Source: a virus. Taken from it: 23,546 nt of DNA. A program made the translations under genes and the position numbers. The notes under the pieces were generated by a model, which did no database searches, was not told where the DNA came from, and saw only the letters and a list, made by a program, of their open reading frames with translations. Shown in pieces: positions 6,520-22,423 of the stretch. The first letter of the stretch is position 1; each line of letters opens with the position of its first letter. Location of the stretch: positions 794-24,339 of the IMG/VR virus record IMGVR_UViG_3300030430_004647; one strand, 5' to 3'.

Positions 6520-9500
6520 ATGTCTGTTGAAAAGTATAAGTTTATTTCACCTGGAATTTTCGTGAGTGAAATTGATAACACAGGTAGGTTACAGTCTCCC
6601 GGTGATGTTGGACCAGCAATTATCGGTAGAGCGGAAAAAGGACCAATCTTAAAACCTGTCACTGTTGACACTTATTTTGATTTTGTAAAAACATTTGGAA
6701 ACCCAATTCCTGGTGGAGCCGGCTCAGATGTCGCGAGAAATGGAAACTATACTTCTCCTACATACGCTGGATATGCAGCGCAAGCATGGCTTAGAAACAA
6801 TTCCCCTGTGACATTTGTTCGTCTTGGCGGTCAGGCAGATCCAAGTGCTTCTGGAACTGGTTTAGCCGGGTGGCAGACAACTCAAACTAGCCCTTCAACG
6901 ACTACAGACGATAATGGCGGCGCATTTGGCCTTTTTATAGCTGATGCTCCAACAAGAACTTATTTAACAGCCACTCTTGAAGTCACTTCTCTTGACATCT
7001 CTCCTGGTCAAACTATAAGTTTTACTGATAATTTAGGCACCGAAAGAATTATTACGTCTGGCACTGTTACAAACGCCACAACTTTTGACGCTAGTAAAAC
7101 TACGGTAGTAGAGATCGCAGAGCAAATCCACGAGGCAATCAACTCAGGTTCGCTTATCACATCTACTGGATTTGGTGGCGCAATCGGTGCGGTTAGTGTT
7201 CTTTCATTAACAGCCAACACTGCCGCGGCTCCATTGCAAACCGCTACGCTTCCAAAGTTATACGCAGGCCCGAGTATTGCGGAGCTTGGATCAGCTACAG
7301 CTGCAACAGCCAGCTTTACATTTACCGACAAGCCAAACGAAGAAACAACCTTATCACTCACCGACGCGTCGAACACCACTGTTGTTTTTGAAATTGATGA
7401 CAACGGTGATGGCGTTGTCACTGGAGGCGCGGTCGCCGTAACGGGCATTGCCGGTGCAGGTGGCGGTGCGACAGGTACAGCCGCTCGCCTAACAGCTTTG
7501 ATAAACGCCAATGCATTTGACATAACCGCAGTTGATGAGGGTGGCGGAAAAGTTACATTAACACAAGACACGGCTGGTACGACGGGCAATAAAGCCATCT
7601 CAAGCACTTTAACTGCCGGTGCCTTTGCAGCTAATAAAGGTGTGCCGACTCAATTCTTTGGAGGCAGTGGAATTCCAGCAATAGTCCTATCAATAGAAAA
7701 TACCGGAGAAATTGCCAACAATCAAACTGGCTCTCTGAGCGCTAGTTACTCGGCAACAACCGGAACGCTAGCTGCTGTCTGGTATATTGATGAAAAAGCC
7801 ACTATTGGCCTATCCGGTTCTAGATCTGACACCGGTGCTGATGATGTAGGAGCAGGAATTTACTTTGACTCCCTTGGAAAACATCAGTTTAAAGTACAAA
7901 TTAGCTCTTCTGCCGGCACGCCAAATGGCGTGTTGATAGACACAAAGTTTGACTTTACCGATACTAGTGATAATTACGTTAGAAAGGCATTTAGCACTAA
8001 TCCAATATTAACCAACTCCTCTGTTGTCGACACAACTAGTAATTCCTACAATAAATACTGGTTGGGTGAGACATACGAGGGCGCAGTTGTAGAAAAATGT
8101 ACAACTAGCGATCAGATTGGTGTGATACTGCCACTTAATAATGGAACAAATTTAGGTTCAGACTTTAGAAGAGATTATGCTGATGCTGAAACTGGCTTCT
8201 TCTTCTCTCAAGATTTAGCAGTCGGCCCATCGGCAACTGGAAGCTACTCTCCAGATAACATGCAAAACCTCTTTAAGCTTGTAGCTAGAAATAGTGGAGA
8301 CTATGTTTCTAGAAACTTAAAAGTATCAATCTCTGATATCAGACAAGCACCTGACGACACGGCTGATCAACCATATGGATCTTTCAGCGTCCTATTACGT
8401 AGAATTGATGACACTGATAATCGTGTAGAAATAGTCGAGCAATTCAACAACTGCAATCTAAATCCAAATTCTCCAAATTTCATTGGTAGAAAAATTGGTG
8501 ATAAGTTTGTTGAATGGGATGATGAAGATAAGAGATACCGTGAGTATGGTGACTACGATAACAGATCGGCATACGTGTATGTTGAATTACCAGAGGAAGT
8601 AAAGGCTGGTGAAACTGACGCTAGGTTCCTACCTTTTGGTGTTCGCGGACCATTGGTGTTCAAAGATTTCCAAGACTTCACTGGAAACGGTGAGACAGTT
8701 GCCATAAACACTTTAGTTTCTGGTAACTTTAACAATTACGGTACAACAAACATTACAAGCTTTATTGAGGGTGCACAAGTAACCAATGGAACCACTAGGT
8801 TTGAATTCCCTCACTTAAGATTAAGAGTTTCAGCTTCTGAGGGTGATCCTGTTGATCAATTGAACTCTTACTACGGTGTTGACACAACATTCAATAGCAG
8901 TAGATTAAACAAGTCAGTCAGAGATCACTTAAAAATATTCCCTGCCGGCATCAGCAACGTTAATGCTAGTGCTTTAACTGAAAGGATGTTTAATTTTACT
9001 TTAGATGACATTTGCTTTCTAAGTGCATCTAACGGTGCAAGGTTCTTTGTTCACAAAACAGGAGCACGCAGCGCTGATGGGGCGACGGCTGTAGATAGTC
9101 TTCACCTGCGCGGTGGCCTAAGCTACCTACGCGGAGATGGCCCTTATACAACCGTTCTTGATGCGGGTGTCGATAAGTTTACAACCGTATTCGCCGGAGG
9201 CTTTGACGGATTAAATATAAAAGAATCGGAGCCGCTACGCGAGGTAAACTATCCAGATGCAGGTATAAGCCCAAGCAACACAGTAAGCTCAGTGTTTAAT
9301 TCTTTAAACGTAGCGATCAACGCACTGAGGGACCCAGAAGTTGTTGAGTTTGACATTGCAGCCATGCCGGGTGTTGTTAACTCTACATTGAATAGAAAAT
9401 TAGTTGACATGTGTGAGGAGAGAGGAGACGCCTTGGGTATTGTCGATATTAAGGGTGGTCACATCCCAGCTAATCAATCTACGCTCGATTCAACCCAACG

Positions 9501-10200
9501 TCGCGGCAGCGTGCAAGAGGTAGTCGATACTTTGAAAACAAATCCTATTGACTCTAGTTATGGCGCAGCATACTATCCATATGTTCAGATATCTGATCTG
9601 AATAACGGTCAAGTTGTAACTGTTCCGCCATCAGTGGTCGCGATCGGAGCGCTATCTTACAGCCAAAACACATCAGAACTTTGGTTTGCTCCAGCCGGCT
9701 TTACTAGAGGCGGGTTGTCTAGCGGTAGAGCAGGATTACCGGTTGTTGGAGTTAAAGATCGTTTAACGTCCCGTGATCGCGATAAGCTTTATGAGAACAG
9801 AATTAACCCGATCGCTCAATTCCCAGCAGAGGGTATCGTTATCTTCGGGCAAAAAACCTTGCAAGTAACTCCATCTGCACTAGATAGAATTAACGTGAGA
9901 CGATTAATGATATTCTTGAAACGACAAATCTCAAGATTTGCTGCTACTGTGTTGTTTGATCAAAATGTTCAAACAACCTGGAACAGATTTACCGGTGTGG
10001 TTGAGCCATTCTTAAGAGGTGTCCAGGCTGGTCTTGGTATCACTCAGTTTAAATTGGTTTTAGATGAGACAACGACAACGCCAGATTTAGTCGATAGAAA
10101 CATCTTGTATGCCAAAATCTTTATTAGACCAGCAAGAGCAATTGAATTCATTGCTATTGATTTTATTCTAACAGATTCTGGCGCGGCTTTTGAGGACTAA
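6520..10200 (+). CDS. 18: Tail sheath protein (T4 gp18-like), unusually long
   Basis: Subunit of the contractile sheath. The N terminus is typical (KYKFISPGIFVSEIDNTG, then AIIGRAEKGPI, and PVTFVRLGG near residue 105). The C-terminal sheath domain is clear: YYPYVQISDL, VPPSVVAIGALSYSQ, RLMIFLKRQISRFAATVLF, NVQTTWNRFTGVVEPFLRG and the end RNILYAKIFIRPARAIEFIA. At 1226 aa it is almost twice T4 gp18 (659 aa). The excess lies partly in residues about 150-370, which look like two related beta modules: about 154-242 (ISFTDNLGTERIITSG, EIAEQIHEAINSG, VLSLTANTAA) and about 261-367 (TLSLTDASNTTVVFEIDD, RLTALINANAF, VTLTQDTAGTTGN). These probably project from the tail surface. Strong ribosome site AAAGGAG. 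Confidence 0.96.
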   Translation: MSVEKYKFISPGIFVSEIDNTGRLQSPGDVGPAIIGRAEKGPILKPVTVDTYFDFVKTFGNPIPGGAGSDVARNGNYTSPTYAGYAAQAWLRNNSPVTFVRLGGQADPSASGTGLAGWQTTQTSPSTTTDDNGGAFGLFIADAPTRTYLTATLEVTSLDISPGQTISFTDNLGTERIITSGTVTNATTFDASKTTVVEIAEQIHEAINSGSLITSTGFGGAIGAVSVLSLTANTAAAPLQTATLPKLYAGPSIAELGSATAATASFTFTDKPNEETTLSLTDASNTTVVFEIDDNGDGVVTGGAVAVTGIAGAGGGATGTAARLTALINANAFDITAVDEGGGKVTLTQDTAGTTGNKAISSTLTAGAFAANKGVPTQFFGGSGIPAIVLSIENTGEIANNQTGSLSASYSATTGTLAAVWYIDEKATIGLSGSRSDTGADDVGAGIYFDSLGKHQFKVQISSSAGTPNGVLIDTKFDFTDTSDNYVRKAFSTNPILTNSSVVDTTSNSYNKYWLGETYEGAVVEKCTTSDQIGVILPLNNGTNLGSDFRRDYADAETGFFFSQDLAVGPSATGSYSPDNMQNLFKLVARNSGDYVSRNLKVSISDIRQAPDDTADQPYGSFSVLLRRIDDTDNRVEIVEQFNNCNLNPNSPNFIGRKIGDKFVEWDDEDKRYREYGDYDNRSAYVYVELPEEVKAGETDARFLPFGVRGPLVFKDFQDFTGNGETVAINTLVSGNFNNYGTTNITSFIEGAQVTNGTTRFEFPHLRLRVSASEGDPVDQLNSYYGVDTTFNSSRLNKSVRDHLKIFPAGISNVNASALTERMFNFTLDDICFLSASNGARFFVHKTGARSADGATAVDSLHLRGGLSYLRGDGPYTTVLDAGVDKFTTVFAGGFDGLNIKESEPLREVNYPDAGISPSNTVSSVFNSLNVAINALRDPEVVEFDIAAMPGVVNSTLNRKLVDMCEERGDALGIVDIKGGHIPANQSTLDSTQRRGSVQEVVDTLKTNPIDSSYGAAYYPYVQISDLNNGQVVTVPPSVVAIGALSYSQNTSELWFAPAGFTRGGLSSGRAGLPVVGVKDRLTSRDRDKLYENRINPIAQFPAEGIVIFGQKTLQVTPSALDRINVRRLMIFLKRQISRFAATVLFDQNVQTTWNRFTGVVEPFLRGVQAGLGITQFKLVLDETTTTPDLVDRNILYAKIFIRPARAIEFIAIDFILTDSGAAFED

Positions 10201-10231: not shown

Positions 10232-10786
10232 ATGGCAACACAGAGATTTTGGACCAACTCGACAGTAGAACCTAAACGAGCGTTTAGATACTTTTTTTCA
10301 TTGGAAAGCAATGCACCTGATAGTAGCAAGATTGAAACTTACGCTATTAAGTCTGTTAAAAAGCCTTCTTTTTCGGTTAGTGAGGTTCCGCATCAATACG
10401 TGGCTCACACCTTCTACTACCCAGGTCGTGTCACTTGGAATCCAGTTGATATAACTTTTGTTGACCCAGTTATACCTGATCAGACTGCTGTGATTACAAA
10501 TATGTTTATTGGCGGTGGTTATAAAATACCAACCGATGAAGTTAATTCTAGAAACTCTTTTAGTAAGGGTAAGTACGTTAACTCTGTGGGCACACCTAAA
10601 ATCACTCAAATTGATGCAGATGGTCAAATTATTGAAACTTGGACTTTAAATAATGCTTTTATAACAACTATTGATTATGGCCAGTTAGACTACTCTTCAG
10701 AAGATTTAGTAATTCTTTCAGTTACTTTACGTTATGATTTTGCAACCTTCGAGAGCGCCGGCGCACCAACTTCGCAACTACAATAA
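10232..10786 (+). CDS. 19: Tail tube protein, copy 1 (T4 gp19-like)
   Basis: 184 aa, close to T4 gp19 (163 aa). It builds the inner tube inside the sheath. Seen: PKRAFRYFFSLES at the start, the IETYAIKSVKKPSFSVSE strand, GRVTWNPVDITFVDP at about 65-79, NMFIGGGYKIP, the ITQIDADGQIIETWTL hairpin, and the closing strands LDYSSEDLVILSVTLRYDFA. Its position right after the sheath gene is the T4 order. Ribosome site AAGGAG is about ten bases before ATG. A second, related gene follows 13 bases downstream. Confidence 0.92.
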   Translation: MATQRFWTNSTVEPKRAFRYFFSLESNAPDSSKIETYAIKSVKKPSFSVSEVPHQYVAHTFYYPGRVTWNPVDITFVDPVIPDQTAVITNMFIGGGYKIPTDEVNSRNSFSKGKYVNSVGTPKITQIDADGQIIETWTLNNAFITTIDYGQLDYSSEDLVILSVTLRYDFATFESAGAPTSQLQ

Positions 10787-10799
10787 TAGAGGGGTTTAC

Positions 10800-11327
10800 A
10801 TGCCTTTTTGGACTGAAAAAGATACTCAGCCGAAACTAGCTTTCAAATGGCACATGAGCTTTGGTAAAGCACCAAATGATGTAAAATCTTATACCGTTCG
10901 ATCCTTTCAAAGACCCTCATTTCAAATTGCCGTATCAGAATACACATGGCTTAATGATGTCAGGTTTCAACCTGGAGTATTAACTTGGAATCCAATAGAG
11001 GTTGTTTTAACTGATGGTGAAGGAAGAGATGAGAATAATGCAAAAAGAATGTATAATATTCTAGTCGGCGGCGGATATAATGCTGAACTCGGAAAAATCT
11101 CTGAAATTCAAAAAAGAAATTCATCAGATGCTTTAGGCGGCCAAATGAACTTTTTTCAGATTGACGATGCAGGCAAGAACATTGAACGTTGGACCTTAAT
11201 TGATCCATTTCTAGAGGCTGTTAATTTTGGTCAAGGTAATTATTCATCAGAAGAAATTGTGAGCATTGCTTTGACGATAAGGTATGATTATGCTTTATAT
11301 GAAGATTTAACCCCTTCAGAGGCATAG
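10800..11327 (+). CDS. Tail tube protein, copy 2 (T4 gp19-like paralogue)
   Basis: 175 aa, clearly related to the gene before it: PKLAFKWHMSFGK, SYTVRSFQRPSFQIAVSE, GVLTWNPIEVVLTDG (about 59-73), MYNILVGGGYN, NFFQIDDAGKNIERWTL and NYSSEEIVSIALTIRYDYAL align in the same order with the first copy. I place the start at 10800, with AGAGGGG seven to eight bases upstream. The frame is open further upstream to 10734, but that part overlaps the first copy. One copy is probably the main tube protein; the other may be a special ring at the tube end or baseplate. Which is which cannot be told from sequence alone. Confidence 0.9.
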   Translation: MPFWTEKDTQPKLAFKWHMSFGKAPNDVKSYTVRSFQRPSFQIAVSEYTWLNDVRFQPGVLTWNPIEVVLTDGEGRDENNAKRMYNILVGGGYNAELGKISEIQKRNSSDALGGQMNFFQIDDAGKNIERWTLIDPFLEAVNFGQGNYSSEEIVSIALTIRYDYALYEDLTPSEA

Positions 11328-11419: not shown

Positions 11420-12244
11420 ATGTCAAGAAATAAAAATAGAGTTAATAAAAATATCCCACCGCAGGCAATGCCAGAGATGGCGCCACAGATGCAACAAGAA
11501 GCGAGCCCATTCAACTTTATTGTACCAACAGAAGTGGTGGAATTACCGAGCAAAGGTAGATATTATCCAGAGGGCCATCCCTTAAAAGGCGTTGATTCGA
11601 TTGAAATAAAACACATGACTGCTAAAGAAGAGGATATTCTAACCTCTCAAAGTTTAATTAAAAAAGGTTTAGCTATCACAAAAATGCTACAATCTATAAT
11701 TTTAGATAAATCAATTAGGGTAGACGATCTTTTGATAGGAGATAAGAACGCTTTACTTGTTGCTTCTAGAATTCATGGTTATGGACCGGAATACAAAGTA
11801 AATTTAACTTGTCCTGCGTGTTCTAATAAATTTCAAACAGAGGTTGATTTAAATGACATAGAACCAAAAGAACTTGAAGCACTAGACAACGTTGAGTTTA
11901 CAGAAGCAGGAACTTTTGCGATAACACTGCCAAAAAGTAACTTTGAAGTGGAGTTTAGACTTTTAACTTCTGCAGATGAAACGAAACTATCCAAAGAAGC
12001 TGGTAGAGGTGCTACCGGGCTGTTAAGATTAATAATTGTTTCAATAAATGGACAAACAGACAGATTTTATATTGACCGCGCTCTTCAGGCGCTACCAATT
12101 AAAGATTCATCATTTCTAAAAAAAGCATATGCCTCAGTTATGCCAGATGTAGATATGTCTTGTAATGTCGAATGCGACAACTGCTTTACTCAAAGTAGAT
12201 TGGAGGTTCCGCTAACAGCGGAGTTTTTTTGGCCTGACTTCTGA
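11420..12244 (+). CDS. 26: gp26-like baseplate hub / tail assembly chaperone (T4_baseplate family)
   Basis: 274 aa against 208 in T4 gp26, an assembly factor of the baseplate hub. The disordered Met/Gln/Pro-rich start (1-30) is followed by the family core: FIVPTEVVELPSKGRYYPEG (33-52), IEIKHMTAKEEDIL (61-74), a helical part with SIRVDDLLIGDKNALLVA, and RIHGYGPEY. Cys131-Cys134 (CPAC) and Cys248, Cys252, Cys255 (CDNC) look like a zinc ribbon split by a long insert. The end VPLTAEFFWPDF is a natural family ending. Its last codons lie on a hairpin followed by T7, and a shift there would fuse the protein to the gp51-like frame downstream. The ribosome site GAGGT lies upstream; an ATG at 11405 stops at once and is not the start. 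Confidence 0.85.
   Translation: MSRNKNRVNKNIPPQAMPEMAPQMQQEASPFNFIVPTEVVELPSKGRYYPEGHPLKGVDSIEIKHMTAKEEDILTSQSLIKKGLAITKMLQSIILDKSIRVDDLLIGDKNALLVASRIHGYGPEYKVNLTCPACSNKFQTEVDLNDIEPKELEALDNVEFTEAGTFAITLPKSNFEVEFRLLTSADETKLSKEAGRGATGLLRLIIVSINGQTDRFYIDRALQALPIKDSSFLKKAYASVMPDVDMSCNVECDNCFTQSRLEVPLTAEFFWPDF
12208..12230 (+). promoter_or_regulatory. Hairpin plus T7 run: candidate frameshift or slippage site
   Basis: TCCGCT (12208-12213) pairs perfectly with AGCGGA (12217-12222) around an AAC loop, followed by G and seven T (12224-12230). In the gp26-like frame the run reads GAG TTT TTT TGG. A shift of +1 (or -2) leads straight into the open gp51-like frame; a shift of -1 gives a stop after two codons. 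The shape resembles an intrinsic terminator, but it is inside a gene and before essential tail genes. A GGAGG at 12202-12206 lies upstream. Confidence 0.6.
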
Positions 12245-12425
12245 TTATATAAAAGAAATTTATGAACAAATATTTTATATGAACTACATTGGCAATTGGA
12301 CTATAACAGAATTGTATAATTTGCCGGTTGGGTTAAGAACATGGTTCGTCAAGAGAACAATAAAGCAAAAAGAAGAAGAGCAAGAAGCATACGAGAAATC
12401 AATTGAAAAATCTAAAAGAAGATAA
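12231..12425 (+). CDS. gp51-like small tail/baseplate assembly protein, read by frameshift from the gp26-like gene
   Basis: 64 codons counted from the first sense codon after the T7 run; the same frame is closed by TAA at 12213. The protein has the plan of the small helical factor that follows gp26 in T4-like phages: DYIKEIYEQIFYMNYIG, then NWTITELYNLPVGLRTWFVK, then a charged helix (KQKEEEQEAYEKSIEKSKRR). The conserved-looking part begins before the first ATG in frame (12279), and no GTG or TTG is available upstream of it. An independent start would therefore remove half of the first helix, and 12279 has no clear ribosome site. This favours expression as an extension of the gp26-like protein, as for tail chaperone pairs G/GT in other phages. 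The order chaperone, frameshift product, tape measure supports this. A sequencing error in the T run is the main alternative. Confidence 0.65.
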   Translation, partial: GLTSDYIKEIYEQIFYMNYIGNWTITELYNLPVGLRTWFVKRTIKQKEEEQEAYEKSIEKSKRR

Positions 12426-12463: not shown

Positions 12464-12817
12464 ATGACTACCTCTCACATTATCGACCTAACAATCGCCA
12501 AAAAACAACTAAATGAATCTGCAATGCTTAGAAGATTTTCAGCAGACTTGAAAGTTATTCTAAGGACTATTCTTTCCAATGAAGCTTATAGGGCTTTGAT
12601 CAGCGAAGAAGAGCAAGAAAAACCAAAAATAGTTGTAAAAGGTTCTAAAGAAGATGTTAAGGCTTTTGCTAAAGCCCTAGAAAATGAAAGGCAGTATGCT
12701 TTAAATTATATGAAACATGGCTTAGGCAGTAAAGAAGTATCAAATTCAAAGCTAGAATTAGAAAAGTCAATTCACGATTTTGAAAGCTCCACCGGTATAA
12801 AGTGGCCCATTGGATAA
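12464..12817 (+). CDS. Small conserved-type protein before the tape measure, function unknown
   Basis: 117 aa, mostly helical and hydrophilic with no membrane segment. Seen: an N-terminal helix (AKKQLNESAMLRRFSADLKV), a short beta part (KIVVKGSKEDVKAFAKALEN, about 54-73), a helix with YALNYMKHGLG (about 77-87) and the end FESSTGIKWPIG. A small protein ending in a TGI-x-WP motif in this place is familiar to me from marine T4-like phages, but it has no assigned role. Its position between the gp51-like frame and the tape measure suggests a tail assembly factor. Very good ribosome site (AAAAAGGAG, seven to eight bases before ATG). Confidence 0.75.
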   Translation: MTTSHIIDLTIAKKQLNESAMLRRFSADLKVILRTILSNEAYRALISEEEQEKPKIVVKGSKEDVKAFAKALENERQYALNYMKHGLGSKEVSNSKLELEKSIHDFESSTGIKWPIG

Positions 12818-12824
12818 ACAATAA

Positions 12825-15197
12825 ATGGCAGAATTTCTAACTGATAAACAATTTAATAAATTAGTATCTGGAATAAGTTCAGCTTTTTCTCGAGCCTTGG
12901 CTGGGGGAGGCACATCTGCGGCCGCAGCAGTACCCAAAGAGATAGATGAAGCACGAAGAAAAGTAATTCTAGATAATATAAAAAGTCTTAAAGAATATGA
13001 AGAACTTGAACGTAAAATAAAAGCTGACGCTGTGGAGAGAGCGGCAGAATTAATAGAACTTGGCGAAGAAGAACTAACCCAAAAACAAAGAAATTTGATT
13101 TTAGCTGCAGAGGCAGTAGAGGAAGCGAGAGAGTATTACAAGGTAGCAAAAGAATCTACAGATATAACTGATGAAGAAGTTCAAAATTTAAAAAATAAAT
13201 TAAAAGAATTAATTAAAATTCGTAAAGAAAAACAGAAAGACAGAGAAGATGAAAAGAATGACGATAATAAGAGACGCAATCGACAAAGCGAAATCAACAC
13301 AGAATTAAGTTTTCAAGCAGATCAAATTTTAACTAGATTTGCTGGTATTGATAATAAAACAATGTCCACTGCAAAAACACTAAAAGGGCTAGGTAGTCCT
13401 GTTAAGGCGTTCAAAGCCGGTTTAGGAGAGGCTAGTAAGAAAATACAAGAGGCCGGCCTCGGTAGCATTCTGATGGCTAAAACTTTCGAAAAGTTAAAAG
13501 AAACTGCATCTTTTATTGGTAAATTAAGTTTTGAAGGTGTTGGAGAAGGGTTTAATCTTCTTGGCAATGTTGAAAAAGCTGCAAAGAGACAAGATGCATT
13601 TAGATTGGCTGCTCGTGAGACAAATGTTCTTGCTGGACAACAAATAGAAGAGCTTGGTCAAAAATTTATGAGACTTGGCCAAGAGACCGATGGCACAACT
13701 GAAGACTTTATGCGTATAAATAAAGAGCTATTTAACACTTCTAATGTATTCAGAGATTTAAAGGCTCGCAATGATGAAACTAGGGAAAGTTTAGAAAGAA
13801 CCGCCTTTACGTTACAAAGAAGATTTATGATTAACGTTGTAGATGGTGCAAAAGTAACAGATATTTTAGGTCAATCTTTTGGAAAAACAACTCCAGAAAT
13901 AGAAGAATTTGAAAAAATATTGGCCGCTAGCGCCTCAACACTTGGATTAGATGTAAAAACTGTTTTTGCTGATTTTGCAGCTGAAGCCACAAACCTTTCA
14001 AGATTTGGTTTGCCTGATATTCAGAAAGAATTTTTATCATTGAGCGTTATAGCACAAAAAACAGGCATTTCAATTAATCAAGTGACAGGCGCCTTAGAAA
14101 AATTTTCAACATTTGAGGGAGCATTAACAGCAGCTTCAAAATTAAATGCTGTGTTTAATACCACAATTGACGGTATGGAAATAATGGAAGAGTTTAATTT
14201 GAACGGACCAGTTGCTGCACTTATTAAACTTAGAGAAGGATTAGAACAAACCGGACAATCTTTTAGTGATTTAAATTTTGCAGAGATGAGGGTGTTTCAA
14301 GAATCGTTGGGAATGAATTCTTTGCAGTTAAAATCGTTTACTGAAGTCTCTGTTGAAGAATTAAAAAAGATACAAGAAGAGACAAGAGGGTTATCTTTTG
14401 CTGAAGCAGAGAAGGTATTACAAAAAGGAAGAAAAGAGGCAGAACTATCAGCTGAAAAAAGATTAAACTTCATTGACAAATCGGTTACAGCCATGAACAA
14501 AGAAGGCAAACAATTGGATGATATTAATAGAAGCGTCATGGATTCTTTAAATGGCATGTCTGAGAGTATGAATAAATTAATACAAGCACTGAATTATGTT
14601 GGTGATATAATAAAAGTTGCTCTTGTCGGGGGCATGATTAAATTTATTGGTCAAACCGTCATGGCCACGAGAGCAGCCCAAGTGCTTGCACAAACACAAG
14701 CGATGACTAATGTAACCACAGGTCTCGGCACCGGCGCCGGCGCAGGTGGTTTCTTAGCCGGTTCAGCCGGAGGCATTCTAGGTCTCGCAGCTCTCGGAAT
14801 TGGTGCAGGTATAATGCTTGAGGGTAGCGAGTTTGATATATACGAGAAAGAGGGTGGCGGCAGCGCCATGGACAGGGCAGGCGGCATTAAAGAAAGGGGC
14901 GGACTTCCAGGCTTCCAATCTGAATTAAATTATTCTAGCATGGACCAGATGGCAGTAGTTGGAGAGGTACCAGAGACTATCGCTTTAAGACAACAAGCGA
15001 CAACAATTCCTGCAGGTGCATCAGTCAAACAAATAGCTGCTGGTCCCAGTAACATAAACTTAACTGTTAATTTGGTAACTAGAGAGGGCGAGATACTGGA
15101 AACAACAAATATTGCTACAGCTGTTGACGAAAAAGAAATGAACAAGGCAATAACAACATACTTAAATAGCAAATTGAACTTAGGACGAAGAGGTTAA
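12825..15197 (+). CDS. Tail tape measure protein
   Basis: 790 aa. It spans the tail tube during assembly and fixes its length; T4 uses gp29 (590 aa). Layout: long charged helical N-terminal half with coiled-coil character (about 35-170, for example LKEYEELERKIKADAVERAA, KNKLKELIKIRKEKQKDRED), further helices to about 590, then a hydrophobic Gly/Ala-rich segment at about 594-665 (IIKVALVGGMIKFIGQTVMA, then GAGAGGFLAGSAGGILGLAA) of the type that can enter the host membrane. A short beta-rich end follows (NINLTVNLVTREGEILETTN). It comes after the gp26/gp51-like chaperone pair, as tape measures usually do. No clear ribosome site is seen: it starts seven bases after the previous stop, so translational coupling is likely. 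Confidence 0.85.
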   Translation: MAEFLTDKQFNKLVSGISSAFSRALAGGGTSAAAAVPKEIDEARRKVILDNIKSLKEYEELERKIKADAVERAAELIELGEEELTQKQRNLILAAEAVEEAREYYKVAKESTDITDEEVQNLKNKLKELIKIRKEKQKDREDEKNDDNKRRNRQSEINTELSFQADQILTRFAGIDNKTMSTAKTLKGLGSPVKAFKAGLGEASKKIQEAGLGSILMAKTFEKLKETASFIGKLSFEGVGEGFNLLGNVEKAAKRQDAFRLAARETNVLAGQQIEELGQKFMRLGQETDGTTEDFMRINKELFNTSNVFRDLKARNDETRESLERTAFTLQRRFMINVVDGAKVTDILGQSFGKTTPEIEEFEKILAASASTLGLDVKTVFADFAAEATNLSRFGLPDIQKEFLSLSVIAQKTGISINQVTGALEKFSTFEGALTAASKLNAVFNTTIDGMEIMEEFNLNGPVAALIKLREGLEQTGQSFSDLNFAEMRVFQESLGMNSLQLKSFTEVSVEELKKIQEETRGLSFAEAEKVLQKGRKEAELSAEKRLNFIDKSVTAMNKEGKQLDDINRSVMDSLNGMSESMNKLIQALNYVGDIIKVALVGGMIKFIGQTVMATRAAQVLAQTQAMTNVTTGLGTGAGAGGFLAGSAGGILGLAALGIGAGIMLEGSEFDIYEKEGGGSAMDRAGGIKERGGLPGFQSELNYSSMDQMAVVGEVPETIALRQQATTIPAGASVKQIAAGPSNINLTVNLVTREGEILETTNIATAVDEKEMNKAITTYLNSKLNLGRRG

Positions 15198-16613: not shown

Positions 16614-19600
16614 ATGGCATTTGCAAAATCAGATAGCATGGGGGGGATCCCCGAACAGTGCTTTTTATTAGAAAAAGCACAACAAATTTTAAATATATCT
16701 AGAAACAAAGACACCAGGCCGCCGCTTAATGCTGATCCAATTAGAGTTCGCGAACCGGTGAGAAATCCTGCCAGTATCGGTGGTACGCTCACCGCAGCGG
16801 TGCAGCCCGGGCGAGTATTAAATTCGCTTCCAGGTCCGTCCGAAGTACCAGTAAGATCTCTATCTAACGCAGTGTCTGGCAGCGGTGGCACTTTGTTGTC
16901 TCATAATATTCCAAATTATGTCCCTCAAAATCCTACTACAGTCGACGAAGTATTATCAATAGCCCCTTTGACAAACAATGTATTTACTTCTAATAAACGG
17001 TATTTAGATTTTCTTACAGGTTTACAAAATTTAAGCGCTCAGGGTCTTGAAACATTTTTAAACCTCGCACCTAATGAAATATCTCAATTAGCTCACTTTT
17101 TGGATGTTCAAGAGGTTATAACACATCCAGATAACGGGGAGATACTTAACCAGGAGGCTATATTTTACCGTAGAGATCAGCGGCGTCCTGGGCGACCAAA
17201 CCATCAAGATTTTGAAAGCAATAGAATATATCTTTCTAGAGGTTTAAGAACGGGCGCAGGTATAACCGATTTCACCCTAACCCATGAGGGTATTGATTCT
17301 GCTACAAAAAAAGTTGTTAGGGCCGAGGTCACATATGTTTTTCAAGATGTACGTGAAATGTTAAATCCAAATTATAGTCGTTTGTTTGATCAAACTGGCT
17401 TTGTTGAGCGTTCATTAACGAGTACTGTTGTTGGCCAACCAGCCACGCAGAGAAGATGCCCTCGATCAATTGATTTTACATTGGGATGGGAAACGAATGA
17501 TACGCTTAGAGCTAGGCTCTCCGGCGCGGGCTTGGATTTAAACAATCTACGAATAACGGTACGCACTCACATGGTTTCATATAATTTTAATTTAAATCAA
17601 GATGGGTCTTTAACTGTTAAAGCTGTTTATAGAGGTCAAATACAAGATGGAATGAGCGGCCCGGGGTCAAACATTCTTGAATTAGCTAAAGCGGTATTTG
17701 AACAATTTAATGGTGATGTAGATGCCGTAGAAAAAAGAGCAGTGGGGTTTGCTCAAAGCTCGGCGTCTGCTTTCAATGATCAAATTGCAAAAGGGGCAGT
17801 GGTTCAAAAATTAAAATTAATAATTGCTGACCGAATTGTTACTAGCGGACTGGGGGTCAGGCGGCCCGTTGGCAGGGGCGCGTATTCAAATTCAAGGTAT
17901 GGGACAGTTTCACAATTAAGAAGCGATTTATTTGGCGCCGGCGGCTTAGATGCCACAAACGCCGCTTTTAGAAACCTTGATAACGCCATCGTCACTGATC
18001 AGATATCATTTCTACAAAGTCAATTTGATCAATTTTTCGATAATAGATTTACCGGGTACCAGGGTCGTACCTACCTTCCGACCAGCACTGTTAACGGCTC
18101 CCGAGGAATAAACCAAAGCTCAGTTGGATTAAATGATATAGGTGATTTTTTAAGTCAAATTGACATAATCGATAAACAATATCAAACATCGGAAAACACT
18201 ATCAGAACAAACATCACTGAGGCCATAACACTATCCTATGCAGAACAAACAAGATTAGCAAATTTTCAGAAATTTAAAGCACTATCTTTACTAGGCACTC
18301 AACTAACCAACAATGCAGATTTACATCATTACTTGATTGACAAAAACGACTATCCGTCCGGACGTGATCCAATTACTGTATTTAAAGCTGAGATGGCAAC
18401 AAACAACGTGGTGAATGCACAAGCTGCAATCACAAATCTTGTTCCAACGTATTTGGTCAGCCATTTACAATTAAGAGAACTGTTTCAGCCCGGGTCCGCC
18501 GGGTCAAACGCCGTGGCTGCCCAGAGTATTCTGGGTCGAAATCAACCGATATTCGGGACGACAGGGCCAATATTTAACGATGTAAATGATCTCCCTACAA
18601 GCGACCCAAGAGCATTTAATGAAGAAAGATATATTTCTTATTCTTTTGTTTTTTTAGGACAACTAATAGAAAACGCCTTAAGGCTTCCCACTGGAATGGA
18701 CTTTTCAGTGACACCCCCGGTACCGATATCCACTGAAACGGTTATAGATCTCATACAATCTAGAGGCCCTAGAATGAGAATAGATTTAGGACTTATCGAC
18801 TTTAAGTGTCCACTAAGCGGAGTTGAAGTATCTAACTTTCCTTTGTATTATTTACCAATATCTCACAAACTTATCAATGGATTTTTTACTAGAGAAATAA
18901 TAGCGAAAGGAAAACAATATTATCCTATACACCAATTCATCATGGACTTACTTAAAAAAGCGCTGCCGGCAGGTTTTAACAAGTGTGCAGATATGTCCGG
19001 AGGTCAATCATTTGTTCCTCCAAAAATACAACTAACTGTTGCGAACCATCCGGAAGGGAATAGAGAAAACGTTTTTCAATATTTTATTCACGGTTCTAAA
19101 AGTGTTATACAAGACTTAACCGAAGCCGGGATCACTAATACTAATTTTGGAGATTATGATACAAATCTTACAAATCTAATACCTCATTTCTTTTTTTACG
19201 GTAGAAGTAAAGGTGCCGATCAAGAAATTAAATTAGTTGATATAACTGATCCATCAATTAAATCAGCAGTTTATTTTAGATCAGTCTCGTCTAAGCAGGG
19301 AGAGTTTGTCGGTGGTATGGAAAGAAAAACGGGCATTGTTCCGATTGTTTTTGAAACTGAAATAAAAACAATAGGCTTTCCTCTTGCGAATGTAGGTCAA
19401 TTGGTTTATGTAACGTTAGACCCTTTTATCATCGATGGAGCTACGATTGTTCGAGGAACCAATAGTGAATCTGTGCGTATGCTGGCGGCAACAGGGTATT
19501 ATAATATTCATAAAGTTAGTCATACTTTCTCCAAAGACGGGTTCTTTACAACTTTAAATGGTATAATTCAGATTTCGGCTAAAAACAAACGAAGCTTAGA

Positions 19601-19850
19601 GCCCACGGCCGGGTTCACACCACCTTCAGCTGCTGCCACCGGTGCGCCCACCCCGCCGGCCAGTGCTGCAACCGCATTGGCGGCTTTCGAGGCAGAAGTT
19701 GCGCAAAATGTTGCAAGATATCAAGCGATAAGGACGCAAATTAATCAGTCAGCAACGTCAGCGGCTAGAACTATACTTTTTAACGCTGAAAACAGCGCTA
19801 CTGGTTTTGATTTTAGACGAAGAAATCCCAGCGATACGACCGGCCTTTGA
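16614..19850 (+). CDS. Large baseplate hub-like virion protein
   Basis: 1078 aa with no single clear family hit by eye. Residues 1-125 look disordered and Pro/Gly/Ser-rich. The middle is mixed, with helix-rich stretches (LAKAVFEQFNGDVDAVEKRA). About residues 735-800 hold a hydrophobic part (SNFPLYYLPISHKLINGFFT, then IHQFIMDLLKKALPAGFN). About 860-990 are beta-rich (GADQEIKLVDITD, VPIVFETEIKTIGFPLANVG, QLVYVTLDPFIIDG, YYNIHKVSHTFSKDGFFTTL), resembling the tail-tip ring domains of gp27/gpD-type hubs. The last 75 residues are an Ala/Pro linker (TPPSAAATGAPTPPASAATA) and a helix. Position after gp53 supports a hub role. It starts one base after the previous stop. GGGGATCCCC (16643-16652), a perfect 10-base palindrome, lies near the start. 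Confidence 0.65.
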   Translation: MAFAKSDSMGGIPEQCFLLEKAQQILNISRNKDTRPPLNADPIRVREPVRNPASIGGTLTAAVQPGRVLNSLPGPSEVPVRSLSNAVSGSGGTLLSHNIPNYVPQNPTTVDEVLSIAPLTNNVFTSNKRYLDFLTGLQNLSAQGLETFLNLAPNEISQLAHFLDVQEVITHPDNGEILNQEAIFYRRDQRRPGRPNHQDFESNRIYLSRGLRTGAGITDFTLTHEGIDSATKKVVRAEVTYVFQDVREMLNPNYSRLFDQTGFVERSLTSTVVGQPATQRRCPRSIDFTLGWETNDTLRARLSGAGLDLNNLRITVRTHMVSYNFNLNQDGSLTVKAVYRGQIQDGMSGPGSNILELAKAVFEQFNGDVDAVEKRAVGFAQSSASAFNDQIAKGAVVQKLKLIIADRIVTSGLGVRRPVGRGAYSNSRYGTVSQLRSDLFGAGGLDATNAAFRNLDNAIVTDQISFLQSQFDQFFDNRFTGYQGRTYLPTSTVNGSRGINQSSVGLNDIGDFLSQIDIIDKQYQTSENTIRTNITEAITLSYAEQTRLANFQKFKALSLLGTQLTNNADLHHYLIDKNDYPSGRDPITVFKAEMATNNVVNAQAAITNLVPTYLVSHLQLRELFQPGSAGSNAVAAQSILGRNQPIFGTTGPIFNDVNDLPTSDPRAFNEERYISYSFVFLGQLIENALRLPTGMDFSVTPPVPISTETVIDLIQSRGPRMRIDLGLIDFKCPLSGVEVSNFPLYYLPISHKLINGFFTREIIAKGKQYYPIHQFIMDLLKKALPAGFNKCADMSGGQSFVPPKIQLTVANHPEGNRENVFQYFIHGSKSVIQDLTEAGITNTNFGDYDTNLTNLIPHFFFYGRSKGADQEIKLVDITDPSIKSAVYFRSVSSKQGEFVGGMERKTGIVPIVFETEIKTIGFPLANVGQLVYVTLDPFIIDGATIVRGTNSESVRMLAATGYYNIHKVSHTFSKDGFFTTLNGIIQISAKNKRSLEPTAGFTPPSAAATGAPTPPASAATALAAFEAEVAQNVARYQAIRTQINQSATSAARTILFNAENSATGFDFRRRNPSDTTGL

Positions 19851-19880: not shown

Positions 19881-21236
19881 ATGCCAAGTTTTTACCCACC
19901 AGTGTCCGGAAGATCTATAAATTTTAATAAATCATTACAATTATATAACAATAGATTATACTACAAATATATTACCGATCTTCTTTACGGTCAATCAAAA
20001 CCAAATTACATTGATTTATGGTATGATGTGCCTCTTTATGGTAAAATAAACATGGAAGGTTTATTAGTCATGCCAAGACCTGAATTAATGACATACTCTT
20101 TAGCAGAGGGAAATTTAGTAACATTTGATTTTTTTAAAACAGCCTTAGAGGATTATACTTTTTTTCTTAAAAGAGCCGTCAGCCAAGGAAGGACAAAACT
20201 TAATCTTTTATTAAATAATTTTGTGGTTAAACAATCCTTTATAGACTCTTACTCAATTCAAAAAAAGGTCACTGATAATTTTACAAGTATCTTTAATAGT
20301 GATATCTTTATTAAAGGAAAAAACATTACAAATTTTAATAGTTACTTTTGTGAACTAGTTGATACCATAGAAATAGCAAACTTAAATTATAGTCTCTTCA
20401 GTGCTTTTTCTAGCGCAGATACAAACCTTCTTTCAACTGGTCTTGCTTTTGAATTTGCAATAAAAGACCATGATGATGATAGAACTAAAAATTCTTATCT
20501 TCAAGATGATGAATTTGAAAAGCATGTAAATGTAGCTGCCAATTTTGGATTTAGAATTAACAAAAACGCTCCATGGATGATTATCGCTGATCTTGCCTCT
20601 AAGCCGATGCTGGATGGTCATATGGTGTCACGAAATGGCGAAAAAATAAAGGTACCAGGATATTTAGCTAATGCCTACATACCAAATGTTAAAACTTTTT
20701 TCGATCAAAATTATGATAGAGTTTCGTATAAATCTTTTGAGTTATTCAAAGAGTCTGTAATTGATGGCTATAATAAATATTTAGAAAATATAGATTACTA
20801 TTATGATCATGGATCTCCAACTTTACATGTTCCAAAAGGATATAAAAATATAACAGGAGTTAATGTCATACGTCAAGGACAAAAATTAATTTATATAAAA
20901 CAATATGATTCAAAATATTATGATGATTATTATTTTTTAAAAAAATATCAAAAAGTTATAAATTTTGAATCTGATAAAAGAATTAGAGATAGAAACTATT
21001 TGACTTTTAAATTTGCATTTGATAAAATGATGAAATTAAAAAAACCTGTTAATGAGATTTTAGATGAAATGGAGAAGTTTTACACTCCAACAAGAATATA
21101 CAATCCCCAAACCCAAAAGCTTTCTTGGAGATCTCCAAAAAACAGATTGACAAGTAGAACTAACTATGTTACCATTCAAACAAAAGAAAAACCCTCACCA
21201 GGGAAAATTGTAACTGAATTTTTACCGGACCTTTAA
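19881..21236 (+). CDS. Tyr/Lys-rich protein of unknown function
   Basis: 451 aa, not recognised. It is strongly rich in Tyr, Phe, Asn and Lys (for example YNNRLYYKYITDLLYGQSKP, about 22-41; IKQYDSKYYDDYYFLKKYQK, about 335-360). Other parts are PNYIDLWYDVPLYGKINMEG (about 40-59), INKNAPWMIIADLASKPMLD and a Ser/Arg/Thr-rich tail (SPKNRLTSRTNYVTIQTKEK). I see no signal peptide, membrane helix or enzyme motif. It directly follows the hub gene and its stop overlaps the start of the polymerase gene (TAATG at 21234-21238). It could be a further baseplate or virion protein, or belong with the polymerase. The DNA is more A+T-rich than the capsid and sheath genes. No clear ribosome site. Confidence 0.65.
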   Translation: MPSFYPPVSGRSINFNKSLQLYNNRLYYKYITDLLYGQSKPNYIDLWYDVPLYGKINMEGLLVMPRPELMTYSLAEGNLVTFDFFKTALEDYTFFLKRAVSQGRTKLNLLLNNFVVKQSFIDSYSIQKKVTDNFTSIFNSDIFIKGKNITNFNSYFCELVDTIEIANLNYSLFSAFSSADTNLLSTGLAFEFAIKDHDDDRTKNSYLQDDEFEKHVNVAANFGFRINKNAPWMIIADLASKPMLDGHMVSRNGEKIKVPGYLANAYIPNVKTFFDQNYDRVSYKSFELFKESVIDGYNKYLENIDYYYDHGSPTLHVPKGYKNITGVNVIRQGQKLIYIKQYDSKYYDDYYFLKKYQKVINFESDKRIRDRNYLTFKFAFDKMMKLKKPVNEILDEMEKFYTPTRIYNPQTQKLSWRSPKNRLTSRTNYVTIQTKEKPSPGKIVTEFLPDL

Positions 21237-22423
21237 TGCTTTTCCAAACATTTGATGAAAAAAATAAATGTACCCTAATCTACAAAAAGGGCACATTTAG
21301 TGAACAAATTACAGACAACTGCACCAAAACTTGGTCTTATGCTACTTATCTACGAGATAAGGAGGTGGAATATGCTAATCTTTACACCGGGGGTAAATCC
21401 TTGGACAAACTTTGCCCAGAAGATTTTAGAGGGCAGTGGGCCGATTGCCAAAACAAAATCAAAGCAGCCATTAAAGCAGCAAACGAAGTAGGTTTAAACC
21501 TAAATGATTACTGTATTTATGATCTCATCCCTAGACATCATCTTCAATCATTCGCAGAGATGAAAAATAAAATTTGTGAGAGCACTTTTGAGAATTATTC
21601 AAAGCCCACAAACTATGATCAACTTTTAAAAATAAATAAAGTGATTGCAGATATAAAAAACCGCAAGGTTGATATTGACCCCACAAAAATAGAAAGACTT
21701 ACAATACAAGATCGTAATATGTTTAAGACTGTAAGTAATTGCAGTCCCTACATTGATTATGATATGTTTAAAACTGTCACTGGTCGACTTGCGACAAGAC
21801 CAAACTCATTTCCAGTCATGACACTTCCAAAAAAATATCGCCAGATCCTTACCCCCACTAACGATTGGCTATTTGAGTTGGACTTTAATGCCTGTGAGTT
21901 GCGTGTAGCTCTTGCTCTGCTTGGCCACGATCAGCCTCAAGAAGATTTACATGATTGGAATCTCAAGAATGTGTTTACAAGAACCAAAAGTAGAGAAAAT
22001 GCAAAGAAAAGGATTTTTTCTTGGCTTTATAATCCAAACAGCACTGATGATAAGGTAGATAAGATTTATGACCGTAAAATACTAAAAGATATGTATTTTG
22101 ATAAAGTTTTGGGTAAAGTTTATACGCAGTTCGGTCGCGAGATTGACGCAGACGAAGATCACGCGATTAGTTATATTATTCAATCGACTGCTGCAGATTT
22201 AGTGTTCGAACAAATGTATGCAGTTTGGGACTTTCTAAAAGATAAAAAATCTTTTGTTAAGTTCTGTAATCACGATAGTTTGGTAATTGATCTTGCAGAG
22301 GAAGATCAATATGATATAAACAAAATTTCTAGACTATTTAGTAATACAAGGTTTGGCAAAATGAAGGTTAACCACGAAGGTGGTAAGAACTGGGCTGAAA
22401 TGAAGCCTTTACATATCAAATAA
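21236..22423 (+). CDS. Family A DNA polymerase domain protein (stand-alone, no exonuclease)
   Basis: 395 aa, DNA-dependent DNA polymerase of the Pol I/T7 type. Markers in order (E. coli Pol I numbers in brackets): TGRLATRPN at 182-190 (Arg184 = R668); motif A LDFNACELR with Asp216 (D705) and Glu221 (E710), then DLHDW at 237-241; motif B R253-K257-F261-Y265, exactly R-x3-K-x3-F-x3-Y (R754, K758, F762, Y766); IIQSTAAD with Gln316 (Q849); motif C NHDSLV with His346 and Asp347 (H881, D882). Pol I Glu883 is Ser348 here, and the usual YG after motif B is YN. The N-terminal 180 residues show no 3'-5' exonuclease motifs and would have to form the thumb. T4 itself uses a family B enzyme. Stop and start overlap (TAATG) with the gene before, so translation is coupled. 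Confidence 0.9.
   Translation: MLFQTFDEKNKCTLIYKKGTFSEQITDNCTKTWSYATYLRDKEVEYANLYTGGKSLDKLCPEDFRGQWADCQNKIKAAIKAANEVGLNLNDYCIYDLIPRHHLQSFAEMKNKICESTFENYSKPTNYDQLLKINKVIADIKNRKVDIDPTKIERLTIQDRNMFKTVSNCSPYIDYDMFKTVTGRLATRPNSFPVMTLPKKYRQILTPTNDWLFELDFNACELRVALALLGHDQPQEDLHDWNLKNVFTRTKSRENAKKRIFSWLYNPNSTDDKVDKIYDRKILKDMYFDKVLGKVYTQFGREIDADEDHAISYIIQSTAADLVFEQMYAVWDFLKDKKSFVKFCNHDSLVIDLAEEDQYDINKISRLFSNTRFGKMKVNHEGGKNWAEMKPLHIK

Follow-up and report, generated by a model that had tools for sequence, protein, structure and literature searches.

The DNA analysed here (the window; 23,546 nucleotides, positions 794 to 24,339 of IMG/VR record IMGVR_UViG_3300030430_004647) very probably encodes a chaperone pair of the G/GT type that belongs to the T4 gp26/gp51 (PF12322) family and is made by a +1 ribosomal slip at UUU_UGG, a reading to which we assign a probability of roughly 0.9. 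The pair would comprise a short protein, TAC-N, read in the standard frame of a gp26-like gene, and a longer protein, TAC-NC, in which a small helical T domain from the second frame is appended. This second frame stands at the same offset in every close relative, directly behind a nearly invariant site, and its product can be traced to the C-terminal extension of T4 gp51.

The gp26-like gene and the frame that follows it

The gp26-like gene (11420–12244, + strand) encodes by standard decoding the predicted short tail assembly chaperone TAC-N, a protein of 274 residues with two CxxC pairs. The protein matches the Pfam family PF12322 (T4_baseplate) with E = 4.3e-15 and a score of 56.4 bits, above the curated cut-off of 24.5; residues 42–271 align with profile positions 9–219 of 219, and the match thus reaches as far as the Trp codon of the shift site. 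The same protein matches phrog_150 (baseplate hub) at 2.3e-18. Two tail tube genes identified by PHROG lie upstream (10232–10786 and 10734–11327) and the tape-measure candidate lies downstream (12825–15197, + strand, 790 residues), which places the chaperone locus between tube and tape measure. The tape-measure candidate is named by its position, with no convincing family match; the gene order of the locus is that of Flavobacterium immuto, whose equivalent gene carries a tape measure annotation. An ORF of 117 residues (12464–12817, + strand), with no PHROG match and no Pfam match above the cut-off, occupies the interval between chaperone and candidate.

Several other features of the window are recorded here in their own right. 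The two tail tube genes overlap and both belong to phrog_4542, a tube duplication that adjoins the chaperone gene. The tail sheath protein (6520–10200) is very long, at 1226 residues, with a strong phrog_23 sheath match in its C-terminal third only, and probably contains large inserted domains. An ORF of 395 residues (21236–22423), located where the structural gene cluster ends, has weak matches to DNA polymerase families and, judged by eye, resembles part of a family A palm region. The sole G7 run of the window is found at 16640, near the start of an ORF of 1078 residues (16614–19850).

The C-terminal end of the gp26-like ORF reads ...LTAEFFWPDF, and its TGA stop (12242–12244, + strand) comes soon after the putative shift site, TTT TTT TGG (12224–12232, + strand). 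The T7 run of this site spans 12224–12230, and a perfect 6-bp hairpin, TCCGCT-AAC-AGCGGA (12208–12222), directly precedes it. The +1 frame is open over 12216–12425, downstream of a stop at 12213–12215, with the product GLTSDYIKEIYEQ...; the extension itself runs for 64 codons, from the GGC at 12231 to the TAA at 12423–12425. This T domain of 64 residues (12231–12425, + strand) would extend the chaperone to a fusion of 334 residues (11420–12425, + strand), predicted by translating the gene with the frame advanced by one base at the site and containing ...LEVPLTAEFFGLTSDYIK... at the junction. Between the upstream stop of the +1 frame and the ATG at 12279, which sits within the first helix, there is no ATG, GTG or TTG. 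The –1 frame is closed by a TAA no more than three codons from the site, which is therefore outside the –1 X_XXY_YYZ class. The 24,339-base record holds a single N-domain gene followed by a T frame that lacks a start, not the two-gene arrangement of T4. The details given for this locus in the preliminary description are all correct, from the end of the gp26-like protein, the FFW codons, the T7 run and the hairpin to the absence of a start before the first helix and the position of the first ATG inside it.

The site and the frame offset are conserved among close relatives

Gp26-like relatives are encoded at 80 IMG/VR loci, which yield 58 distinct junctions with the window counted. The second frame is +1 in all 58. 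The site reads TTTTTTTGG in 55 of these junctions and TTCTTTTGG in three, such that alignment of the junctions, which had been proposed as a check, upholds the offset throughout and the T7 run in part. In the 56 junctions that were aligned, offsets 0, 1 and 3–10 of TTTTTTTGGCC are invariant (10 of 11 bases) and the third T alone varies; the T that follows GGCC is kept at 96%. At the protein level, FFG is invariant in an alignment of 39 fusions. Codon choice at the site is constrained as well: the second Phe is TTT in 58/58 distinct junctions, versus 76% TTT elsewhere in these genes, and the Pro after the site is CCT in 56/58, versus 26% elsewhere. The distance between the first Phe codon of the site and the frame-0 stop is 5–6 codons in 57/58 junctions and 9 in one.

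The T frame contains no stop in any of 56 relatives, versus stops in 53/56 and 56/56 for the other two frames, and its pairwise dN/dS is ~0.05–0.14 in pairs for which the ratio is computable. The T frame is under strong purifying selection and is a real coding extension. Because T7 runs are common in the AT-rich window, which has eight of them, the run alone means little; the signal beyond chance is the conservation of the site and the offset. These observations bear out the earlier proposal of a programmed frameshift that joins gp26-like and gp51-like parts across relatives.

Variant sites in the sister clade and in distant relatives

In a sister clade, the site is exclusively GGYTTCTTTTGG and the T frame is still +1. 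Members L099–L113, apart from L108, all have GGYTTCTTTTGGCC, in which the run of T's before GG is only four long; TTCTTTTGG in these members, as in the three close junctions described above, presents four T's in a row behind TTC. Most members of this clade have no usable start before the T domain, owing to an in-frame stop a short way upstream. The site is T7GG in L115 and L116. The +1 offset is kept in flavobacterial MAG contigs with T7GG or T8CCC, in Microcystis Mel-JY01 with TTTTTTTGG, and in Flavobacterium immuto with TTTCTTTGG (TTT CTT TGG), which would correspond to a CUU_U slip as in prfB. In the Bacillus phage SP-15, the Listeria phage LIS04 and the Streptococcus phage GXN1, the second frame is likewise +1, behind a common junction motif, CCCGATT, which may be a +1 site of another kind in which CGA is the slow codon. 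The T frame of these three phages is unannotated or truncated in GenBank.

Other arrangements also occur. In L108 (~3229) and L114 (~3217), the T domain is a separate ORF that lies in another frame and begins at its own ATG just past the gp26-like stop, and the slippery site is gone in L108; these two loci represent natural loss of the frameshift. In two jumbo-phage members, L088 (~4280, Stenotrophomonas phage RAS14) and L084 (~4271, LR756511), the T domain lies at –1; L084 also carries TAATGGATG past the stop, which could allow reinitiation. A search of IMG/VR for relatives of the SP-15 and RAS14 chaperones returned none that were new.

The variant sites discriminate between ways of entering the second frame. 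The preliminary description had allowed a shift of either +1 or –2, by either ribosomal frameshifting or RNA polymerase slippage, and in both pairs the former member stands. A ribosome that slipped two bases back on the T7 run, as happens in phage Mu, would reach the same frame with one extra Phe, giving the junction peptide LEVPLTAEFFFGLTSDYIK in place of LEVPLTAEFFGLTSDYIK for the window sequence; frame arithmetic permits such a –2 shift, the run in the window is long enough, and tail chaperones with –2 shifts are known (PMC5009743). If the polymerase slipped on the T's, it would instead produce mRNAs with six or nine U's that are decoded in the standard way, as might be imagined from the presence of the T7 run in most relatives. 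Both are disfavored because the sites of the sister clade and the variants have only four consecutive T's. At TTCTTTTGG (3/58 and the sister clade) or at TTTCTTTGG of immuto, a –2 shift would oblige the tRNA on UUU or CUU to re-pair two bases back with UCU or a similar codon, and we consider this route very unlikely. The arrangement is likewise unchanged in relatives with four consecutive T's, and the GGCC after the run, for which slippage by the polymerase has no need, is also kept, leaving transcriptional slippage highly improbable. In contrast, re-pairing one base forward (UUU to UUU or CUU to UUU) is perfect or near-perfect at all of these sites, and a +1 slip of the P-site tRNA at UUU_U or CUU_U before UGG is the best single mechanism because the short-run sites also fit it.

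A different account would dispense with the fusion altogether, with the T domain being a separate protein initiated within the gp26-like gene or just past its stop. A second-frame ATG lies 8 nt before the site in 12/58 relatives and a GTG in 5/58 (L006, L011–L019, L021 and others), with GGAGG- or GGGGG-type sequences ahead of it in the examples read; in L108 and L114 the T ORF occupies another frame and starts at an ATG of its own, and the gp51 of cyanophages S-PM2, P-SSM2 and P-SSM4 is annotated with its own start. In the window, however, that codon is CAG and no start precedes 12279, 19/58 relatives have no ATG, GTG or TTG anywhere in the open +1 stretch, and the upstream stop in most of the sister clade leaves no start there. 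Nor would a free T domain require the invariant TTTTGGCC. An own start in relatives, which had been named as a point against the frameshift, is thus present as ATG in 12/58 and absent in most relatives, in the window and in the sister clade. Independent initiation is hardly credible as the general explanation, and a free T domain might be made additionally in the relatives with ATG or GTG. Finally, homopolymer runs are prone to error, and a true run of T6 would mean that one gene had been split by sequencing or assembly; this explanation is refuted by the 58 distinct relatives, which come from many assemblies, share one offset and include variants without a long run.

The T domain is related to the C-terminal extension of T4 gp51

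T4 gp26 and gp51 have been called hub assembly chaperones (PMC3004832). Both match PF12322 over the full length of the model and, because they match one Pfam family, appear to relate to each other as G to GT. The match of T4 gp51 to phrog_150 reaches the end of that profile (280 of 282), whereas the matches of T4 gp26 and of the gp26-like protein stop near 235. Because gp51, unlike gp26, runs to the end of phrog_150, T4 gp51 is, as judged from these profile matches, a gp26-like domain with a C-terminal extension.

The cyanophages provide an intermediate. The 'gp51' of S-PM2 is an ORF of 57 residues after gp26, in the –1 frame relative to gp26 and behind TTTTTTC. TTTTTTC with a T domain in the –1 frame is also present in S-WAM2, P-SSM2, P-SSM4 and Vibrio VS2, and TTTTTTT is present in Cr30 and phiN3. 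In S-WAM2, gp51 is unannotated and a start codon is absent near the junction.

Direct hhalign comparison of the window-clade T domain with the T4 gp51 C-terminus is weak, with p = 0.11 for the narrow set (41/300 shuffles as good; not significant) and p = 9e-4 for the broad set (0/300 shuffles). The relation is resolved because the cyanophage T domains serve as a bridge: the alignment of cyanophage-type T domains to the T4 gp51 C-terminus has a probability of 97.8 (E = 6.6e-13; 0/150 column shuffles), and their alignment to the window-clade T domain has one of 96.2 (E = 2.5e-9; 0/150 column shuffles). A third shuffle control, with a broader T set, gave 4/150 shuffles above the observed score, including one outlier of 133.6; we read these four as artefacts of gappy columns and place weight on the other two controls. 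Searches with the T domain alone gave no match by tblastn against GenBank phages and weak hits only against PHROGs. Taken through the cyanophage bridge, the profile alignments indicate that the second-frame T domain and the C-terminal extension of T4 gp51 are homologous and that the small cyanophage 'gp51' is the same T domain. The label 'gp51-like' given to the second frame was therefore right, with the addition that the frame corresponds to the C-terminal part of T4 gp51.

A link between the T4 hub factors and the general chaperone pair mechanism had also been anticipated, and it is supported by the PF12322 and T-domain homology. It is not new, as T4-like tail chaperone genes were identified by Vladimirov, Gautam & Davidson in 2022 (Virology 566:9–15, as cited in PMC10885494 and PMC12846349).

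Predicted fold of the gp26-like protein

The AlphaFold2 model of the gp26-like protein has a pLDDT of 84. Its top fold matches are 3klu (YqbN of B. subtilis; Z = 5.5), which we take to be a chaperone relative, and 2ob9 (the HK97 tail assembly chaperone; Z = 5.4). Both matches span residues ~21–123 and are followed by an unrelated entry at Z = 3.5, values under 8 being inconclusive alone. A fold search with the model of T4-type gp51 gave no clear match. The predicted fold of the N-domain is, by itself, suggestive of tail assembly chaperones; together, position, domain anatomy, decoding and fold support the assignment of a tail assembly chaperone pair with a short and a frameshifted long form.

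Proposed mechanism

In the mechanism that we propose, the majority of ribosomes would read the gp26-like frame to the stop at 12242–12244 and release the short TAC-N. A minority would slip by +1 with tRNA-Phe in the P site on the second UUU (12227–12229) and the UGG Trp codon waiting in the A site; the tRNA would re-pair with the overlapping UUU (12228–12230), the slip thereby covering UUU_U at 12227–12230, and reading would resume at GGC-CUG. The product would be the TAC-NC of 334 residues with its helical T domain. The function of lambda G/GT and slippage in the P site are well established. To judge from lambda, the tape measure protein may be coated by the short form in many copies, and the T domain of the rare long form may recruit the tail tube subunit, in which case the ratio of the two forms would contribute to control of tail length in the phage.

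The efficiency of the slip may be low because UUU_U is a weaker +1 site than CUU_U and the UGG in the A site is a sense codon. A minority of prfB genes have UUU_U, the weaker of the two, in place of CUU_U (PMC5009743). Candidate stimulators were considered and set aside. The upstream hairpin to which attention had been drawn is real in the window, but all six pairs are preserved in 1/39 distinct sequences and position –11/–7 is T-T in 20/39, and its conservation does not hold. A GGAGG that might act as an internal Shine-Dalgarno sequence lies ~20 nt before the shift codon and is absent in many relatives; at this distance it is presumably too remote for a prfB-like effect. The 80 nt downstream contain no unusual RNA structure (mean z of –0.1, mononucleotide shuffles).

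A more speculative proposal, which we think rather unlikely, is that UGG acts as a timer, such that the supply of charged tRNA-Trp, or the amino-acid state of the host, governs the proportion of short and long chaperone and through it tail output, combined with repeated switching among –1, +1, duplicated-gene and separate-ORF arrangements at one homologous junction.

Comparison with known systems

T4 gp26/gp51, cyanophage gp26/'gp51' and the marine clade of the window would form one chaperone family with at least three decoding modes at the same protein junction, namely a +1 slip, a –1 slip and two genes. The family lends itself naturally to the study of how programmed frameshifts arise, change direction or give way to another arrangement. 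The comparison also sets annotation right, the T domain being usually overlooked, truncated or named as a separate gp51. UUU_UGG, which places a sense codon in the A site and lacks an evident stimulator, would be a useful case for the prediction of +1 frameshifts; PRFect recovered 0/481 forward shifts of the RECODE set (PMC10885494).

A review from 2016 describes the G-T frameshift as widespread among long-tailed phages 'except T4' (PMC5009743). Vladimirov et al. (2022) are cited for the arrangement of a short gene and a long gene in the PRFect paper (PMC10885494) and for poly-T –1 sites in the Adele paper (PMC12846349). In the open full texts, we found no report of a +1 class among T4-type tail chaperones, and the +1 UUU_UGG variant and the switching of direction appear to be new.

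The closest functional parallel is the gpG/gpGT pair of lambda, with further counterparts in P2 (E/E+E') and Mu. Lambda shifts by –1, whereas the window phage would shift by +1 at UUU_UGG, and the N-domain of the window protein differs in its CxxC pairs. As in the window, a poly-T site is found in a myovirus tail chaperone gene of the Vandenendeviridae (Adele), but there the shift is –1 at GTTTTT (PMC12846349). The +1 slip of a P-site tRNA in prfB and in Listeria phage PSA resembles that proposed for the window, where the likeness is one of sequence. Sites of the prfB type, however, have a stop codon in the A site and a Shine-Dalgarno sequence 3 nt upstream, whereas the window has a sense UGG, no close Shine-Dalgarno sequence and no 3' structure found. 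Within the family itself, the gp26-'gp51' of cyanophages and other T4-like phages (S-PM2, P-SSM2, P-SSM4, S-WAM2, Cr30, phiN3 and Vibrio VS2) places the T domain after the same Phe-Phe codons, but at these junctions the T domain lies in the –1 frame (U_UUU_UUC type), whereas in the window clade it lies at +1. T4 gp26 and gp51 belong to the same family (PF12322), and the gp51 extension is, by the profile bridge, homologous to the T domain of the window; T4 obtains its two forms from two separate, divergent genes without a frameshift, whereas the window phage would obtain them from a single gene and a shift.
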